Source: Chelativorans petroleitrophicus (GTDB lineage: Bacteria > Pseudomonadota > Alphaproteobacteria > Rhizobiales > Rhizobiaceae). From it: a stretch of DNA of 64,000 nucleotides. This document shows, one piece after another, positions 1 to 64,000 of this stretch. A program made the position numbers and the translations under genes. The stretch is taken from positions 186,001 to 250,000 of the forward strand of contig NZ_JAODNV010000005.1 in assembly GCF_025398195.1 (NCBI RefSeq), written 5' to 3'. A model generated the notes under the pieces. It saw only the letters and a list, made by a program, of their open reading frames with translations, did not search any database and had not been told where the DNA came from. The first letter of the stretch is position 1. Each line of letters begins with the position of its first letter.

Positions 1-831
1 GAGATGCCGCTTTCGAAATCGAGCGCGGCACTCTTTGTCTCTCAGTCCGGCGAGACGGCGGACACGCTCGCTTCGCTACGTTATTGCCGAGCCCAGGGAG
101 TGCCGATCGCTTCCATCGTGAATGTGCGGGATTCGACCATCGCGCGCGAGAGCGACGGCATCTTCCCCACGCTTGCGGGACCGGAGATCGGTGTGGCCTC
201 CACCAAGGCCTTCACCTGCCAGCTTGCGATCTTCGCCGCCCTTGCGGCGCGCGCCGGCCTCCAGCGCGGCACGCTTTCCGACGAGGAGGCGCGCAGGATG
301 GTCCGTGCGCTTTCGGAAGCGCCGCGCTATGCCGCCCAGGCCTTGCGGCTGGAAGGGCACATCGAGAAGATCGCGCGCGAGCTGTCCCAGGTCCGCCACG
401 TGCTCTATCTCGGGCGCGACACTAGCTATCCGCTCGCCATGGAAGGGGCGCTGAAGCTCAAGGAGATCTCCTACATCCACGCCGAAGGCTATGCGGCCGG
501 CGAACTCAAGCACGGGCCGATCGCGCTGATCGATGAGAGCATGCCGGTCATCGTGATCGCACCGACCGACCGCATTTTTGAAAAGACCGTCTCCAACATG
601 CAGGAAGTGGCGGCGAGGGGAGGGCGCATCATCCTGATTACAGACGAAGCGGGTGCCGCGCGTGCGTCGCTCGACAAGTTTGAGACGATCGTCATGCCCA
701 CCATGCCGGAATTCATCGCCCCGATCGTCTATGCGCTTCCGGTACAGATGCTGGCCTATCACACGGCCGTCGCGATGGGCACGGATGTCGACCAGCCGCG
801 CAATCTCGCGAAGTCCGTGACCGTCGAATAG
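1..831 (+). CDS. glmS: Glutamine--fructose-6-phosphate aminotransferase, 3' part (partial at window edge)
   Basis: GlmS makes glucosamine-6-phosphate from fructose-6-phosphate and glutamine in the cytoplasm, the first step towards UDP-GlcNAc. Only the C-terminal isomerase half is present: the frame is open from the first base, and the N-terminal glutaminase domain lies outside the window. Visible are the sugar-binding SIS motif SQSGETADTL near residue 15, a second SIS domain with LKLKEISYIHAEG, the ELKHGPIALI segment, and the family-typical C-terminus DQPRNLAKSVTVE. A glmU gene for a later step of the same pathway lies at 23979-25340. The DUF502 gene follows on the same strand after about 140 bases. 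Assignment is secure; the true start cannot be seen. Confidence 0.96.
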   Translation, partial: EMPLSKSSAALFVSQSGETADTLASLRYCRAQGVPIASIVNVRDSTIARESDGIFPTLAGPEIGVASTKAFTCQLAIFAALAARAGLQRGTLSDEEARRMVRALSEAPRYAAQALRLEGHIEKIARELSQVRHVLYLGRDTSYPLAMEGALKLKEISYIHAEGYAAGELKHGPIALIDESMPVIVIAPTDRIFEKTVSNMQEVAARGGRIILITDEAGAARASLDKFETIVMPTMPEFIAPIVYALPVQMLAYHTAVAMGTDVDQPRNLAKSVTVE

Positions 832-22738: not shown

Positions 22739-22814
22739 TGGTGAGCGCGCTGGGATTCGAACCCAGGACCTACTGATTAAAAGTCAGTTGCTCTACCGGC
22801 TGAGCTACGCGCTC
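22739..22814 (-). tRNA. tRNA-Lys (anticodon UUU)
   Basis: A full cloverleaf on the minus strand: acceptor GAGCGCG pairs with CGCGCTC, the D arm has GCTC/GAGC, the anticodon arm is ACTGA-CTTTTAA-TCAGT with anticodon TTT at 22779-22781, and the T arm is CTGGG-TTCGAAT-CCCAG. The 3' CCA is encoded in the DNA (22739-22741). There is no sign of an integrated element or a duplicated tRNA 3' end beside it. Confidence 0.97.
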
Positions 22815-57649: not shown

Positions 57650-59008
57650 TTGGCCAGGAAAGAAGGCAGAAAGCCACAGGAGGAGGCTCCGACAAACGGT
57701 GATCGTACCAAGGCCGTCGTCGTAACGCCGGTTCTGCTTTCCCACGGCCGCGGCCAGCCTGCGGACCGCGATGGGCGGCCGCACATGTCGCTGTCGCCCG
57801 AGGCGCGGCTGGCGGAAGCGGTGGGACTGGCGGAAGCCATCGATCTCGACGTCGTCCACCGTGAGGTCTTCACCGTCACCCAGCCAAAGCCGGGCACATT
57901 GATCGGCACCGGCAAGGTGGAGCAGCTCGCGGGAATCGTGGCCGAAACCCCGGCAGAGCTTGTCATCGTCGATCATCAGCTTACGCCTGTGCAGCAGCGC
58001 AACCTCGAACGCGCGCTCAAGGCGAAGGTGCTCGACCGCACCGGACTGATTCTCGAAATCTTCGGCCGCCGCGCGCGCACCAAGGAAGGGCGCCTGCAGG
58101 TCGATCTTGCCCATCTCGAATATCAGCGGGGGCGGCTCGTCAGAAGCTGGACGCATCTTGAGCGCCAGCGCGGCGGCGGGGGCTTCATGGGCGGCCCGGG
58201 CGAAACGCAGATCGAGGCGGACCGGAGGCTCCTGCAGGAGCGGATCGTCCGCATCCGGCGGGAGCTGGAGACGGTGAGGCGCACCCGCGATCTGCACCGG
58301 GCCAAGCGGCGCAAGGTACCGTTCCCGGTGGTTTCGATCGTGGGTTACACCAACGCCGGCAAATCCACGCTGTTCAACCGGCTGACTGGGGCCGCTGTGC
58401 TTGCGGAAGACATGCTCTTCGCCACGCTGGATCCCACATTGCGGCGGGTCCGTTTTCCGCACGGTACCGTAGTCATCCTTTCCGATACGGTCGGCTTCAT
58501 CTCGGACCTGCCGCCTCATCTCGTCGCCGCCTTCCGCGCCACGCTTGAGGAGGTGATCGAGGCCGATCTCATCCTCCACCTGCGCGATATTTCGGACCCG
58601 GATACCACGGCTCACGCGGCGGATGTGGAAGAAGTCCTATCGAGCCTGGGGATCGACCCTGCCGACACCAACCGCGTGCTGGAGGTCTGGAACAAGATCG
58701 ATCTCCTGAGCGAGGAGGATCGCAGGCGGCTTTTGCGCGACGCGGTGAACAGGACGCCGCCGGTGGCCATATCCGCGGTGACTGGCGAGGGGATCGACGA
58801 CCTGATGGCCATTATTGAGGAGCGCGTCTCAGGCGGGGTCGTGGAAGCCTCATTCACTTTATCGGCGGAACGGCTGGGATTAATCGACTGGATTTATCGC
58901 CACGGAGATGTGATCCGCCGTGAAGATCACGAGGATGGCAGCGTCACGCTGCATCTGCATACAACCCAAACCGCGCGCGATGAAATCGCGCGAAAATTAA
59001 GAAATTAA
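57650..59008 (+). CDS. hflX: GTPase HflX
   Basis: HflX is a ribosome-associated GTPase that splits 70S ribosomes under stress. The 452-residue protein has the N-terminal HflX domain (LIGTGKVEQLAGI near residue 85) and helical GGPGETQIEADRRLL near 183. The G domain has G1 GYTNAGKST near 230, G3 DTVGF, G4 NKID near 345. The start is TTG immediately after the hfq stop, with GGGAAGG before it; an in-frame ATG 135 bases later is the alternative. Confidence 0.94.
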   Translation: MARKEGRKPQEEAPTNGDRTKAVVVTPVLLSHGRGQPADRDGRPHMSLSPEARLAEAVGLAEAIDLDVVHREVFTVTQPKPGTLIGTGKVEQLAGIVAETPAELVIVDHQLTPVQQRNLERALKAKVLDRTGLILEIFGRRARTKEGRLQVDLAHLEYQRGRLVRSWTHLERQRGGGGFMGGPGETQIEADRRLLQERIVRIRRELETVRRTRDLHRAKRRKVPFPVVSIVGYTNAGKSTLFNRLTGAAVLAEDMLFATLDPTLRRVRFPHGTVVILSDTVGFISDLPPHLVAAFRATLEEVIEADLILHLRDISDPDTTAHAADVEEVLSSLGIDPADTNRVLEVWNKIDLLSEEDRRRLLRDAVNRTPPVAISAVTGEGIDDLMAIIEERVSGGVVEASFTLSAERLGLIDWIYRHGDVIRREDHEDGSVTLHLHTTQTARDEIARKLRN

Positions 59009-59026
59009 AACAAGGGGTAGGGCGGA

Positions 59027-59839
59027 TCACTTCATCTTCTTTGCGCGCTGCCAGAGTATTTCCATCTCATCAAGCGTGGCTGATCCGAGGTCCTTCTCAT
59101 TCGCCTTAAGTTCGCGCTCGATCTGATGGAAACGGCGGCGGAATTTCTCGTTAGCCGATCGTAGCGCGCTTTCCGGATCTACATCGAGATGGCGGCCGAG
59201 ATTGACCAGCGCGAAGAGCAGGTCTCCAAACTCCTCAGCTACCTCGTCGTGGCGGGACTGAACGATGGCCTGCCGTAGCTCCCCGATCTCCTCCTCGATT
59301 TTGTCGAGAACGGGTTCGGCAGCCTTCCAGTCGAAGCCGACCCTCGCCGCCTTCTGCTGCAGCTTCAAAGCTCGCATGAGCGCGGGCAGGGCGATGGCCA
59401 CATCGTCCAGATAGCCATGTTCCTCGCGCTGGTCGGGAGTCCGGCGCGCCAGGCGCTCCTTTTTCTCCTCGGCCTTGATCTTCTCCCACATGACCTTGAC
59501 GGCATCCGCCTGGCGCGCATCCGTTTCGCCGAAGACATGCGGATGGCGGCGGATCATCTTGGTCGTGATGGCTTCCACAACGTCGCCGAAGTCGAAATGT
59601 CCGGCTTCCTCGGCCATACGCGCATGAAAGACGACCTGGAGCAGCAGGTCGCCCAGCTCCTCGCGCAGATCATGCATGTCGCCGCGCTGGATGGCATCCA
59701 GCACCTCGTAGGCTTCTTCGATCGTATAGGGCGCGATGCTCGCGAAATCCTGCTTCACGTCCCAGGGGCAGCCGGTCTCGGGATCGCGCAGCGCAGCCAT
59801 GATCTCGATCAGGCGCGAAATGTCTCTCGAAGGCTTCAT
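59027..59839 (-). CDS. mazG: Nucleoside triphosphate pyrophosphohydrolase MazG
   Basis: MazG hydrolyses NTPs and dNTPs to monophosphates and moderates ppGpp signalling. The 270-residue protein has two MazG domains. The first starts IMAALRDPETGCPWDVKQDF near residue 13, with EEAYEVLDAI and the EELGDLLLQVVFHARMAEE metal-binding pattern near 55. The second has EVAEEFGDLLFALVNLGRHL near 215. The start at 59839 is chosen because the family begins there. The foreign gene upstream reads over its first 56 codons in another frame. Confidence 0.94.
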   Translation of the reverse strand: MKPSRDISRLIEIMAALRDPETGCPWDVKQDFASIAPYTIEEAYEVLDAIQRGDMHDLREELGDLLLQVVFHARMAEEAGHFDFGDVVEAITTKMIRRHPHVFGETDARQADAVKVMWEKIKAEEKKERLARRTPDQREEHGYLDDVAIALPALMRALKLQQKAARVGFDWKAAEPVLDKIEEEIGELRQAIVQSRHDEVAEEFGDLLFALVNLGRHLDVDPESALRSANEKFRRRFHQIERELKANEKDLGSATLDEMEILWQRAKKMK

Positions 59840-61133
59840 TCGGGCTCCTCTGCGGTGCAGGAGCCGTAGCGCGGATCGACCTCCAGGGCAAGAAAGCGCG
59901 GCATCCAGCAAGCCCGCGTTCTATATCTATTTCCCTCCTTTGGCTGACTCGTGCAGGGAAGAGACAGCCTTGTTGACGACCGGTATTAGACTTACGCATC
60001 GCGGATGCACCAATCCAGCCAGCAGCTCCACCGGCTGCCATACCGACAGGTCCGGCTGGCATGCCAGTTACTGTCCCTAGCCCCAGTCCTGACAGATTAC
60101 CTTTAAGACGGTTCAAATCCTGCCTTTGTATGGATTTTAGTTCTTCGTAATCCGCTCCTCTTTTGTAGGCCAAGATAGTGCGTGAGAAAGGAACAATATT
60201 TAATCCTCCTTTCTTCATATCTGTAATAATGACATTTTCATTCTTCCTATCAATATCCGCACGAAGTACGGTCTTATAAATATTGCGCTCATTTTCAATC
60301 TGTTTTCTGTAGGTATCACGCAGGATGGAAACAACGGCATTGGCGGCGATTCTCGTGCCGCGCCCAGGCGTCGGGTTACTGCTCAAGTTGCTGGACAATA
60401 TCATTGGCGCCCCAAGGGCTTGCGTGTTACTCTCACCCACTTCATCTGGCGAAAGAGTGATTATGTTGCCCTCATACGTGACAACCCACAGGCGCTCCTG
60501 ATTGTCGGGTTCTTTGAAGAGGCATCCAACGAAAGAACCGCCAGACGACTCGTCTTTATATAAATATTGTAACTCAAACTCCTTGTATCTTAGTATCTTA
60601 CTCTCCGGATTTAATATAGATTCCTTGAATGTGTCGCCATCAGATAGATTCGTTGCTTCATTCCTTATTATATCTAACCTGATATTTGCTATTGCGTTCC
60701 TAAAGTTCATTCCATAATAGTTATTTGCGTCTCCGTACTTTTTATGAATCTTCTTTGGATCAAGTTTCAATTCCCTGGCGATTTCCATGAGGGTTGCTGG
60801 GCGCGACCGATCAAGGAAATCGTTCATCGCACGGTTCTGCCTGGCACTTGTGCTCAAGTTCGCATGGGCAGGCTGCAATCGGCCTTCATCAACATCCGTC
60901 CTAATCTCCGCGGCCAGGTTTTCCATGACCTCATCACGAAAGGTGTCCATCGCGGGATTTGAAGCGCCGTCGGATTTACGCGGCGCGTAGAAAACGTATT
61001 TGGAAAGGCCAGTGTCTTCCTGACGTGCCGGGTCAGAAGGCCGCTGCTTTGTCGGTTTTATTTTTTCACCCAATTCATGGGCAAGCGTACGAAGAGTGTG
61101 CTTTATATCTGATGAAACAGTAAGAGGAGACAT
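59670..61133 (-). CDS. AT-rich orphan protein, 3' end fused out of frame into mazG (probable acquired gene, truncated)
   Basis: I do not recognise this 487-residue frame. Its base composition from about 60090 to 60800 is much richer in A and T than anything else in the window, and its codon use follows. The N-terminus is polar and basic (SSDIKHTLRTLAHELGEKIK). A hydrophilic middle has IRDTYRKQ-like SILRDTYRKQIENERNIY near residue 290. Near residue 375 comes a Gly/Ala-rich hydrophobic stretch (TGMPAGPVGMAAGGAAGWIG), a possible membrane segment. The last roughly 90 residues are encoded by GC-rich host-like DNA, and the last 57 overlap mazG, so the native C-terminus is probably lost. An effector or toxin role is possible but unsupported. 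Confidence 0.5.
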   Translation of the reverse strand: MSPLTVSSDIKHTLRTLAHELGEKIKPTKQRPSDPARQEDTGLSKYVFYAPRKSDGASNPAMDTFRDEVMENLAAEIRTDVDEGRLQPAHANLSTSARQNRAMNDFLDRSRPATLMEIARELKLDPKKIHKKYGDANNYYGMNFRNAIANIRLDIIRNEATNLSDGDTFKESILNPESKILRYKEFELQYLYKDESSGGSFVGCLFKEPDNQERLWVVTYEGNIITLSPDEVGESNTQALGAPMILSSNLSSNPTPGRGTRIAANAVVSILRDTYRKQIENERNIYKTVLRADIDRKNENVIITDMKKGGLNIVPFSRTILAYKRGADYEELKSIQRQDLNRLKGNLSGLGLGTVTGMPAGPVGMAAGGAAGWIGASAMRKSNTGRQQGCLFPARVSQRREIDIERGLAGCRAFLPWRSIRATAPAPQRSPNEAFERHFAPDRDHGCAARSRDRLPLGREAGFREHRALYDRRSLRGAGCHPARRHA

Positions 61134-61210
61134 CGTGCTTACCGCGAAAATTCACTACGAGTACCACTTTTCAATACGGTTTCCGCGTCCAACGACGCGA
61201 CTGTTCAATA

Positions 61211-61238
61211 AATAAACCTCGATCCGGAGTACTGACAA
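61211..61238 (-). promoter_or_regulatory. Candidate promoter of the AT-rich gene
   Basis: On the minus strand TTGTCA is followed after 16 bases by TTTATT, about 80 bases before the start codon. Moderate match only. Confidence 0.25.
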
Positions 61239-61369
61239 TTAAAGTCTCTTCACGAAACCGTGCCGGAGAGGAGATCAAGTCATGGATCGCATAAGATAGA
61301 TTATGGAACCAGCCCGCGTCCGCGTTGTGAGAGCTTGGGATCCAGAGAGACAGTGGCAACGGCGCTACT

Positions 61370-61401
61370 GGGTGCCCGGATAGCCGCGTGCCCGGATAGC
61401 C
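61370..61401. repeat. Tandem 16-base duplication within a REP-like palindrome
   Basis: GTGCCCGGATAGCCGC occurs twice in direct succession. The second copy pairs with the following GCGGCTTCCCGG to give an AGCCGC-TCG-GCGGCT hairpin with a bulged outer stem, a shape seen in interspersed palindromes of alphaproteobacterial genomes. Confidence 0.65.
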
Positions 61402-61463
61402 GCTCGGCGGCTTCCCGGATTACGGGTGGATGCGTCCCGCGGCTCCGAGATTTCCGGAACCGA

Positions 61464-61934
61464 CTACCCGGCAATATCCGCCGTTTCCGCGCCCGCCGCT
61501 GCAATCAGCGCCTTCGGGTCGGCCGCGAAGACCGCATCATGCGCGCCAGCAGCCGCCCAGACCTGATCGAATTCGAGCAGAGTCTCGTCCGCGAAGCGGC
61601 GGACACCGTCGGGATGGCCAAGCGGCGAAACGCCGCCTATGGCAAATCCTGTCTCCTCGCGCACCTGCCGCGGATCGGCGCGCTCCAGAGCCTCGCCAGC
61701 GAGCCTTGAGGCTTTTTGCAGGTCGAGCTTCTTTCCGCCGGAGACCAGGAAAAGATAAAGTCGGCCGGAAGATTTGCCGGCAAACACCAGCGATTTGACG
61801 ATCTGATTGACCTCACAGCCGCACTGGCGCGCCGCTTCCTCGGCCGTTCTGGTCGATTCCCCCATGCGCTTGACCTCGATGGCGAGCCCCGCCTGCGCAG
61901 CTGCCATCTCCACGCGCCTGATGCTCTTGGACAT
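61464..61934 (-). CDS. YbaK/EbsC-family aminoacyl-tRNA deacylase
   Basis: A 156-residue single-domain protein of the YbaK/ProX editing family, which clears mischarged tRNAs (Cys- or Ala-tRNA-Pro). Family features are TRTAEEAARQCGCEVNQIVK near residue 28 with the catalytic-site Lys of VKSLVF, and GFAIGGVSPLGHP near residue 96. It is followed by the MBL hydrolase on the same strand. The exact tRNA substrate is not decided. Confidence 0.9.
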   Translation of the reverse strand: MSKSIRRVEMAAAQAGLAIEVKRMGESTRTAEEAARQCGCEVNQIVKSLVFAGKSSGRLYLFLVSGGKKLDLQKASRLAGEALERADPRQVREETGFAIGGVSPLGHPDGVRRFADETLLEFDQVWAAAGAHDAVFAADPKALIAAAGAETADIAG

Positions 61935-61958
61935 GCGTTCCCCCGAAACACCCCAGGT

Positions 61959-62768
61959 TCAAAGCTCGGTTTCGATCATCATCCCATCATAGGCCGGTTC
62001 GACGTGATCGGGCGTCTGGCGCCGCACGGTTTCATAATCCAGCGGCGTGTGCATATGGGTCAGCACCGCCCGCCGGGGCGTCAGACGCTCAATCCATTCC
62101 AGAGCCTCGGAAAGCGAAAAATGGCTTGGGTGCGGCTTGTATTGCAGAGCGTCGATGACAAGCACGTCGAGGCCCTGAAGCAGCGGTACGGTCTCAGGCG
62201 GAAAGTCGCTGACGTCCGAGCAGTAGGCAATGTTTCCTATCCGGAAGCCCAGCGAACGGATATCGCCATGGATCTGAGGCAGCGGCGTGAAGGTCAGCGG
62301 CCCGCCCTCGCCCGGCACGCTGAAATCGCGATCGTGCACTATCGGGTGCGGCATGACGATCGGAGGATAATTGCTGCCCTCCGGCGTTTCGAAACAGTAG
62401 CCGAAGGCCTGTTTCAGCCGGCCAAGTGTGACCTCGTCCGCATAAATATCGATGAGACGGCCCTGCGCCAGCACATAGCCGCGCAGATCGTCGATGCCGT
62501 GGATGTGGTCGGCGTGCGGATGGGTGTAGACCACGCCGTCCAAGCGGCTGACGCCGGCCGCGATCATCTGCGCGCGGAAATCCGGGCCGGTATCGATTGC
62601 AACGCGCGTGACAAGCCCGTCCGACCTAACGCACTCCACCAAGGCTGCCGCGCGCGTGCGCCGGTTCCGGGGATTGCTTGGATCGCAGGCGCCCCAGTCG
62701 CCGATGATGCGCGGCACGCCGGGCGAGGAGCCGCAGCCGAGGATGGTCAGTCGAAGTCGCTCCGGCAA
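61959..62768 (-). CDS. Metallo-beta-lactamase-fold hydrolase (PhnP-like)
   Basis: A 269-residue MBL-fold enzyme. Metal-binding motif HxHxDH is in YTHPHADHIHGIDDLRGY near residue 83, with further ligands in AYCSDVSDFP and TPRRAVLTHMHTPLDY near residue 235. The N-terminal LTILGCGSSPGVPRIIGDWG is typical of the group next to tatD in alphaproteobacteria. The first codon appears to be TTG, three bases after the tatD stop. The substrate is unknown; PhnP members cleave cyclic phosphodiesters. Confidence 0.88.
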   Translation of the reverse strand: MPERLRLTILGCGSSPGVPRIIGDWGACDPSNPRNRRTRAAALVECVRSDGLVTRVAIDTGPDFRAQMIAAGVSRLDGVVYTHPHADHIHGIDDLRGYVLAQGRLIDIYADEVTLGRLKQAFGYCFETPEGSNYPPIVMPHPIVHDRDFSVPGEGGPLTFTPLPQIHGDIRSLGFRIGNIAYCSDVSDFPPETVPLLQGLDVLVIDALQYKPHPSHFSLSEALEWIERLTPRRAVLTHMHTPLDYETVRRQTPDHVEPAYDGMMIETEL

Positions 62769-62771
62769 GGC

Positions 62772-63566
62772 TCACGCGCTCCTCATGGACGGGCGTTGCA
62801 CCTTCTTGAACAGCCGGAAGAAATTTTCCGACGTGATCGCCGCTGTCTCTTCCGGGGAAAGCCCGATGGTCTCGGCCAGAACGGCGGCCGTATGCGCCAC
62901 ATAGGCCGGCTCGTTGCGCTTGCCGCGGAAGGGAACGGGCGCAAGGTACGGCGCATCCGTCTCCACCAGAAGCCGGTCGTGCGGAATGCCCTTGGCAATC
63001 TCCCGCAGCGCGTCCGATTTCTTGAAGGTCAGGATTCCCGAAAAGGAGATGTAGCCGCCCAGTTCCACGCCGGTGCGGGCAAGCGCCGGCCCGGAAGAGA
63101 AGCAGTGGAGAATGAAGGGAAAAGCCCCCCTTCCCGCTTCTTCACGCAGGATTGCAGCCACGTCGTCGTCGGCATCCCGCGCGTGGATGACAAGCGGCAG
63201 GCCGGTGCGCCGCGCGGCCTCGATATGCGTGCGGAAGCTCCTGGCCTGCAGGTCGCGCGGGGCCCTGTCGTAGAAATAGTCGAGGCCAGCCTCCCCGATG
63301 CCGACGACCTTGGGATGTTCGGAAAGGTTCACCAGCTCTTCAGCCGTGACATCAGATTCCTCGGCCGCATTGTGCGGATGCGTGCCGACGGTGCACCAGA
63401 CATTGTCGTAGCGCTCGGCAATGGCGCACACGACGGGAAACTTCCTCACCCGTGTGGCAATGGTGACGAGCAGGCCCACGCCCGCTTCGCCCGCGCGCGC
63501 AACAACCTCGTCACGTTCGTTTTCAAAATCCGGGAAATCCAGGTGACAGTGGCTGTCGACCAGCAT
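62772..63566 (-). CDS. tatD: TatD family metal-dependent DNase
   Basis: A 264-residue TIM-barrel metal hydrolase of the TatD family, linked to DNA repair and 3'-5' DNA processing. Metal ligands are in LVDSHCHLDFPDF at the start, GIGEAGLDYFYD near residue 92, LPLVIHARDADDD near 127, LHCFSSG near 152 and LVETDAPYLAP near 203. The ATG directly follows the metG stop (TGAATG), so the two are coupled. Confidence 0.94.
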   Translation of the reverse strand: MLVDSHCHLDFPDFENERDEVVARAGEAGVGLLVTIATRVRKFPVVCAIAERYDNVWCTVGTHPHNAAEESDVTAEELVNLSEHPKVVGIGEAGLDYFYDRAPRDLQARSFRTHIEAARRTGLPLVIHARDADDDVAAILREEAGRGAFPFILHCFSSGPALARTGVELGGYISFSGILTFKKSDALREIAKGIPHDRLLVETDAPYLAPVPFRGKRNEPAYVAHTAAVLAETIGLSPEETAAITSENFFRLFKKVQRPSMRSA

Positions 63567-64000
63567 TCAGGCCCCCTGCCCTTCTTCCGGTTCCATATAA
63601 CGCGGAAATACGGGCTGAGGTGTGGGCAGCTCCGTCCCGGGCTGAAGCATGCCGGCAGCGCCGAGATCGGCAAAGCTGCGCCGGTCGGCAGGCACCGAAA
63701 GCAGATCCAGAAGCTTTCCGGCAGAGCCGGGAATGTAGGGCTGGCAGAGGATCGCGATGCGTCGCAGCACTTCCGCGGTCGTATAGAGCACCGTCTCCAT
63801 GCGCGCCGGATCGGATTTGCGAAGTGCCCAAGGCTCCTGAGCGGCAAAATACCGGTTCGCCTCCGACACCACTTCGAAGATGGCTCCCAGCGCGGTATGG
63901 ATCGCCTGGCGCGCCATCGCCTCACGGGCCGTCGCAAGCGCCGTTTCCGCGCGCTCGAGCAGGGCCGTATCGGCTTCCGCGAACGTCCTGCGCGCTGGCA
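63567..64000 (-). CDS. metG: Methionyl-tRNA synthetase, 3' part (partial at window edge)
   Basis: The last roughly 143 codons of metG, open to the end of the window on this strand. The visible part is the anticodon-binding helical domain, with FEVVSEANRYFAAQEPWALR, VLRRIAILCQPYIPGSAGKL and the typical final LDLLSVPADRRSFADL. MetRS charges tRNA-Met in the cytoplasm. The gene lies directly before tatD on the same strand. Confidence 0.9.
   Translation of the reverse strand, partial: PARRTFAEADTALLERAETALATAREAMARQAIHTALGAIFEVVSEANRYFAAQEPWALRKSDPARMETVLYTTAEVLRRIAILCQPYIPGSAGKLLDLLSVPADRRSFADLGAAGMLQPGTELPTPQPVFPRYMEPEEGQGA

Follow-up and report, generated by a model that had tools for sequence, protein, structure and literature searches.

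Introduction

Xer-exploiting integrative elements (IMEX) are bounded by two dif-like sites and are known at dif, with LME-1 in Legionella as an example, according to PMC9765430. Published dif sequences from the order include those of Mesorhizobium loti and Brucella melitensis chromosome I (Table 1 of PMC2731167). No link between mazG and dif was found described in the literature searched, judged by title and start of abstract, and no dif islands in Brucella were found in the literature searched either.

The window analyzed here is a 64,000-nucleotide stretch of Chelativorans petroleitrophicus (GCF_025398195.1, contig NZ_JAODNV010000005.1). Near its end, the ORF listing gives a frame of 487 codons (59670–61133, minus strand, 487 residues, ATG start) between mazG and a ybaK-type gene. 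In this locus, as in LME-1 and other IMEX, foreign DNA adjoins dif. Unlike those elements as PMC9765430 describes them, the window's block has no second dif-like site, no recognizable mobility gene, and one gene only. The original prediction took the frame for an AT-rich orphan gene running out of frame into mazG; the dif setting beside it was missed. G305 below is another genome of the same family. The features discussed are as follows.

59027–59839, minus strand: mazG, a core gene (Pfam MazG, E 1.3e-42; start ATG at 59839)
59670–59929, minus strand: run-on tail, probably not native, about residues 402–487 of the 487-residue frame, matched in relatives solely as mazG 5′ DNA
59882–61281, no strand: block without DNA similarity to genus stretches beside mazG (blastn, 15 relatives, two stretches short)
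59927–59929, minus strand: TAG stop of the +1 frame, a tentative candidate for the stop of the native gene, assuming a frameshift near codon 385
59943–61133, minus strand: orphan gene body, residues 1–397 (G305 homologue, composition, shuffle tests)
60099–60833, minus strand: conserved central domain, residues ~101–345, about 245 residues, common to the G305 protein
61287–61308, plus strand: predicted dif core, XerC arm, 6-nt center, and XerD arm (pattern, published dif, GC skew)
61464–61934, minus strand: ybaK-type aminoacyl-tRNA editing gene, the other flank of the terminus interval

Coding Evidence and Composition of the Orphan Frame

Residues 1–395 of the orphan frame are real coding sequence. 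The longest stop-free run in 59930–61300 was 407 codons, while in 500 dinucleotide shuffles this run averaged 113 codons and never exceeded 227. Because the run exceeds the shuffle maximum, the body is a gene, and a chance ORF was ruled out. It comprises a variable N-terminus (residues 1–100), the conserved central domain (~101–345), and a Gly/Ala-rich segment (~349–379). From about 60100 to about 61300, GC content dropped from about 0.63 to 0.36–0.56; inside this stretch, the region near 60300–60500 was less AT-rich (0.55). Codons 1–350 had a GC content of 45.5% and a GC3 of 0.48 in core DNA of about 63% GC, and GC3 was 0.73–0.77 in five neighboring core genes (hflX, mazG, ybaK, a metallo-beta-lactamase gene, and tatD). 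The ORF was as originally described. The last 90 or so residues had been called GC-rich, and the tail is; however, GC already stood at 0.64–0.69 at residues 349–372, which are Gly/Ala codons, and at 0.50–0.58 at residues 373–396, so the rise starts earlier, at residue 349. A Gly/Ala-rich hydrophobic segment had likewise been placed near residue 375. The Gly/Ala-rich stretch is present, but its hydropathy is modest (best 19-residue mean 0.96). Promoter- and terminator-like sites occurred at chance level only across 59500–61600, and structured RNA was absent from 58000–64000 at E up to 1. A tRNA T-arm-like string was seen at about 60110; the only tRNA called by ARAGORN was tRNA-Lys at 22739.

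A Predicted dif Site and the Variable Terminus Interval

The sequence TCGCATAAGATAGATTATGGAA occupies 61287–61308, an intergenic position about 150 bp upstream of the orphan gene. The 22-nt dif pattern occurred once in the genome without mismatch, one further site was found at three mismatches, and at up to three mismatches the pattern was absent from 100 shuffles of the window. With the next base included, the 23-nt sequence TCGCATAAGATAGATTATGGAAC is identical to the core of the M. loti and B. melitensis chromosome I dif as listed in Table 1 of PMC2731167, and the outer bases of the window's 28-mer differ from those entries. Cumulative GC skew, computed for the single 295-kb contig rather than a closed chromosome, peaked in the 240–245 kb bin, and dif lies at 247287. 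In five-kb bins, skew was negative in 9 of 49 before 245 kb and in 9 of the 10 full bins after. The arms, the center, and the position near the skew maximum all point to 61287–61308 as the chromosomal dif, the predicted dimer-resolution site.

A dif-like site was also found beside mazG in 11 of 15 genus relatives, allowing up to two arm mismatches and a free center in the stretch fetched beside mazG; a three-mismatch site in L031 was dropped as chance. Of the other four, G013 has its dif about 14 kb from mazG and G001 about 126 kb, and the mazG contigs of G007 and G008 stop short of any dif. The mazG–dif gaps of the 11 relatives were 138, 300, 467, 582, 1609, 1651, 3032, 3081, 5122, 5126, and 5181 bp; that of the window is about 1450 bp. 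G011 and G005 also carry about 5–6 kb between dif and ybaK. A Pfam scan of ten of the cargo proteins, together with inspection by eye, showed an MFS-regulator pair in G012 (Pfam) and G011 (by eye); G014 (Pfam), G003, and G005 (both by eye) carry genes for branched-chain amino-acid transport. Cargo is common within lineages, so the mazG–dif–ybaK locus varies by lineage, not at random. The mazG–dif stretches of these relatives had a GC content of 0.56–0.65 (n = 11), and the strong AT-richness is therefore peculiar to the window's gene.

Several side observations were made at dif sites. In 3 of the 11 relatives (loci L027, L028, and L029), dif is inverted relative to the mazG–ybaK axis; all three also have genes for branched-chain amino-acid transport as cargo, identified by Pfam in L027 and by eye in L028 and L029, and their mazG–dif distances are nearly equal (5.12–5.18 kb). 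The window's own genome has a second dif-like site on contig C69 (L052:8787–8808) with identical arms and another center, TCGCATAACAAACATTATGGAA, which is probably that of a second replicon. Including the dif core, its XerD side aligns at 88% across 64 bp with the window's dif; its XerC side, core again included, aligns at 84% across 145 bp with the dif in L028, which belongs to another species. These mixed flank matches might reflect past Xer exchange between replicons. Beside the window's dif, 61329–61420 contains dispersed repeats with partial matches (80–96% identity) at seven genomic sites in addition to C69, and the 16-mer GTGCCCGGATAGCCGC forms a perfect tandem duplication at 61372–61403. 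Two dif-like sites in G007 (C13:92–113 and C10:92–113) lie 92 bp from their contig starts and differ in their centers; that assembly seems to break next to dif.

Distribution and a Single Distant Homologue

The orphan gene was absent from 15 of 15 other genus genomes in the 487-residue search, apart from a match to its tail. For the DNA comparison, blastn was run against the stretches beside mazG in the 15 relatives, two of them short at contig ends, plus locus L015 of G305, which gave no alignment to the window. On the mazG side, window DNA aligned with 15 of 15 relatives up to 59839–59881 (59803 in G003). Alignment resumed on the ybaK side from 61474–61504 in 8 of 15, and between the two flanks dif alone aligned, within 61282–61322, also in 8 of 15. 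The gene's absence from the 15 genus relatives and the dissimilar block at 59882–61281 support the acquisition proposed in the original prediction.

A search with residues 1–400 matched 2 of 394 family genomes, the window's own and G305 (one among 393 others). Two-protein alignment searches matched the own genome only in an order draw (1 of 397) and a phylum draw (1 of 378), and G305 itself was the sole match among 35 genomes of its genus; all these draws overlap. Pattern scans of an 84,980-genome collection and of viral contigs confirmed nothing, such scans catching close relatives only. Searches of phage and plasmid records with tblastn, using the window protein and the G305 protein, gave no match, and a phage or plasmid gene was rejected because these searches were empty. 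A candidate third homologue in G379 (E 2.5e-4) was dropped: it has one internal stop and, by reading, lies antisense within a peptidyl-prolyl isomerase-like gene. In a near-identity comparison of window 61000–64000 with plasmid records, one Shinella record matched at 72%.

The G305 homologue has 392 residues (L014:1441–2619, minus strand) and was found at E 5.2e-11 forward and 5.8e-11 reciprocal. It shares 23% identity with the window protein over residues 106–351, with an alignment score z of 14.5 against 1000 local shuffles. Residues 100–345 carry the homology (z 14.0), compared with z −0.9 for residues 1–105 and z 0.1 for residues 345–395. The two proteins share the homologous central part of about 245 residues and a Gly/Ala-rich C-terminal segment, and both genes are AT-rich orphans among ordinary genes. 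The G305 gene has a GC content of 0.362 in DNA of about 0.46–0.57; by reading, it is flanked by a glyoxalase-like gene on one side and by an MFS gene, then pheT and pheS, on the other. Its product ends in a Gly/Ala-rich hydrophobic stretch with a best 19-residue hydropathy of 1.92, and, given the z of 0.1, the two Gly/Ala segments are alike in kind only. In contrast to the window's gene, the G305 gene lies away from dif, has a normal stop, and encodes an unrelated N-terminus. Two dif-like sites occur in the G305 genome, both on contigs other than the homologue's, and linkage to dif is thus not a family property.

Probable Run-On into mazG and the Native 3′ End

Protein similarity to the relatives (15 of 15) starts at ATG 59839, the mazG start. 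The orphan frame, which lies on the mazG strand but is read in a different frame, therefore overlaps mazG by 57 codons (59670–59839), as first noted. When the 487-residue query was run against 16 genus genomes, each relative (15 of 15) gave one match, always within residues 416–487, and stop codons interrupted the matched frame in 10 of 15. These matches arise from the 5′ end of mazG and its leader, translated out of frame. As the tail matches only as mazG 5′ DNA and meets stops in 10 of 15 relatives, it is not a conserved protein, and it is probably not native. An intact ancestral gene of 487 residues was rejected, since the mazG-derived tail alone matches relatives; full-length homologues sharing the C-terminus over mazG were looked for and not found.

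Two accounts of the native 3′ end were weighed. According to the original prediction, the end was lost by recombination at a junction near 59930–60000, which fused the gene to the mazG leader. We regard this as the less likely account. It fits the end of the conserved mazG-side DNA at about 59839–59881, the GC rise near that boundary, and the run-on of about 90 codons. Weighing weakly against it, the homologue ends at about equal length (392 residues), so little or nothing seems missing, and a +1-frame coding signal at residues 385–396 belongs to a frame that ends in a stop. The signal comes from a codon score trained on residues 1–350 and applied in twelve-codon windows, with the frames scored separately, without a joined sequence; windows starting at 349 or later share little or nothing with the training set. 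Frame 0 was preferred in 6 of 7 windows from 301 to 384, the exception being 349–360, and in 2 of 3 of the (nearly) independent windows before the switch, with the same exception. At residues 385–396, the score was −7.4 for frame 0 and +2.8 for frame +1. The switch spans 12 codons, and in window 397–408, which contains the stops of the +1 frame, frame 0 again scored higher (+1.2). The TAG at 59927–59929 is the equivalent of codon 402. Aligned with the homologue's C-terminus, the +1-frame C-terminus scored 21 and that of frame 0 scored 9, a score of 21 being reached by 17% of shuffles. Together, these observations slightly favor a late frameshift over loss of the 3′ end. The apparent frame change could possibly be a sequencing error.

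Possible Function of the Orphan Product

The original prediction described the protein as unassignable, and it stayed so. Searches of Pfam, NCBIfam, PHROGs, and PADLOC gave no significant match; the best subthreshold matches were a Pfam entry at E 0.04, below its cutoff, and a PHROG at E 0.15, with none in NCBIfam or PADLOC. PDB sequences gave no significant match either (best E 1.1 and 0.089). Membership in a known family was rejected on these profile-library and PDB searches. The product might be a membrane-associated accessory protein, a low-confidence guess from its two-part layout, in which a Gly/Ala-rich segment comes after the conserved domain of about 245 residues, and it is possibly exported.

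A resemblance to membrane-inserting toxins or secreted effectors had also been proposed, and a resemblance it stays; we consider such a role doubtful. The gene is AT-rich and sporadic with a divergent N-terminus, and in both homologues a hydrophilic domain precedes the Gly/Ala-rich segment, all of which would suit an effector. However, it has no significant family match, and its flanks are mazG and ybaK, without a chaperone, immunity, or secretion gene. The T6SS sheath gene (VipB) was found in neither of the two carrier genomes, in a search that was positive in the E. coli control. YscC-type T3SS secretin matches occurred in both carriers, neither above the curated cutoff, but none of 14 control genomes exceeded it either and split rhizobial secretins could be missed.

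Origin and Proposed History

The setting beside dif raises the question of Xer-mediated entry. Since no second dif-like site flanks the orphan gene (best arm match 11/16 in 59840–61280), it does not lie in an intact Xer-integrated element, and an IMEX with two dif sites was ruled out. The gene could instead be a remnant: it would have arrived as cargo when an element recombined with dif, and the distal dif copy would later have been lost along with neighboring DNA. Its start about 150 bp from dif, on the same side as most other lineages' cargo, would suit this, as would the occurrence of such elements at dif (PMC9765430). Yet no second dif-like site was found between mazG and dif: in 59800–60200, the best arm match was 9/16, a value reached by 499 of 500 shuffles. 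The PHROG match is not significant and phage and plasmid records gave none, and we hold a remnant to be improbable. The block contains no phage, plasmid, or island genes, its one gene matching neither phage or plasmid records nor mobility families. Four short direct-repeat families occur in 59700–61550, none of which brackets the block as an insertion footprint would. No donor was found in the records searched. Ancestral presence followed by loss from all sampled relatives is scarcely credible. A homologue does exist elsewhere in the family, but the gene is found in none of the 15 genus relatives, composition is foreign in both carriers, and the homologue occupies an unrelated place.

As a whole, the locus is best explained, with reasonable but far from full confidence, as an acquired accessory gene of the dif interval with a broken 3′ end and a run-on into mazG. 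This account starts from the observed composition, the absence in relatives, dif and its position, the homologue, and the mazG origin of the tail. The route that we infer is horizontal acquisition of a rare AT-rich accessory gene on the mazG side of the chromosomal dif, at the replication terminus, in an interval whose cargo differs between lineages of the genus. The native product would have had about 390–400 residues, with the conserved domain of about 245 residues set between a variable N-terminus and a Gly/Ala-rich C-terminal segment, and would most likely have been a membrane-associated, possibly exported accessory protein. A frameshift or deletion would then have broken the native 3′ end, after which the frame would happen to stay open across the mazG leader and 57 codons into mazG, giving the 487-residue run-on. 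The orphan is a real, acquired accessory gene that is probably decaying, and this decay is most likely what produced its run-on into mazG.

Conclusions

Herein, a long frame is described whose last fifth is probably run-on and which automatic annotation would keep. No biological meaning should be given to its overlap with mazG. The finding is mostly ordinary, with a two-member family that has no match in the four libraries searched. It is conceivable, if a long shot, that this pair of homologues represents the first observed examples of a very rare membrane-active accessory family spreading as single AT-rich genes through one alphaproteobacterial family, probably Rhizobiaceae, with the window copy having entered via the dif locus and being inactivated after insertion. 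The orphan is now placed as an accessory gene in the terminus dif interval, where lineages of one genus carry different cargo.
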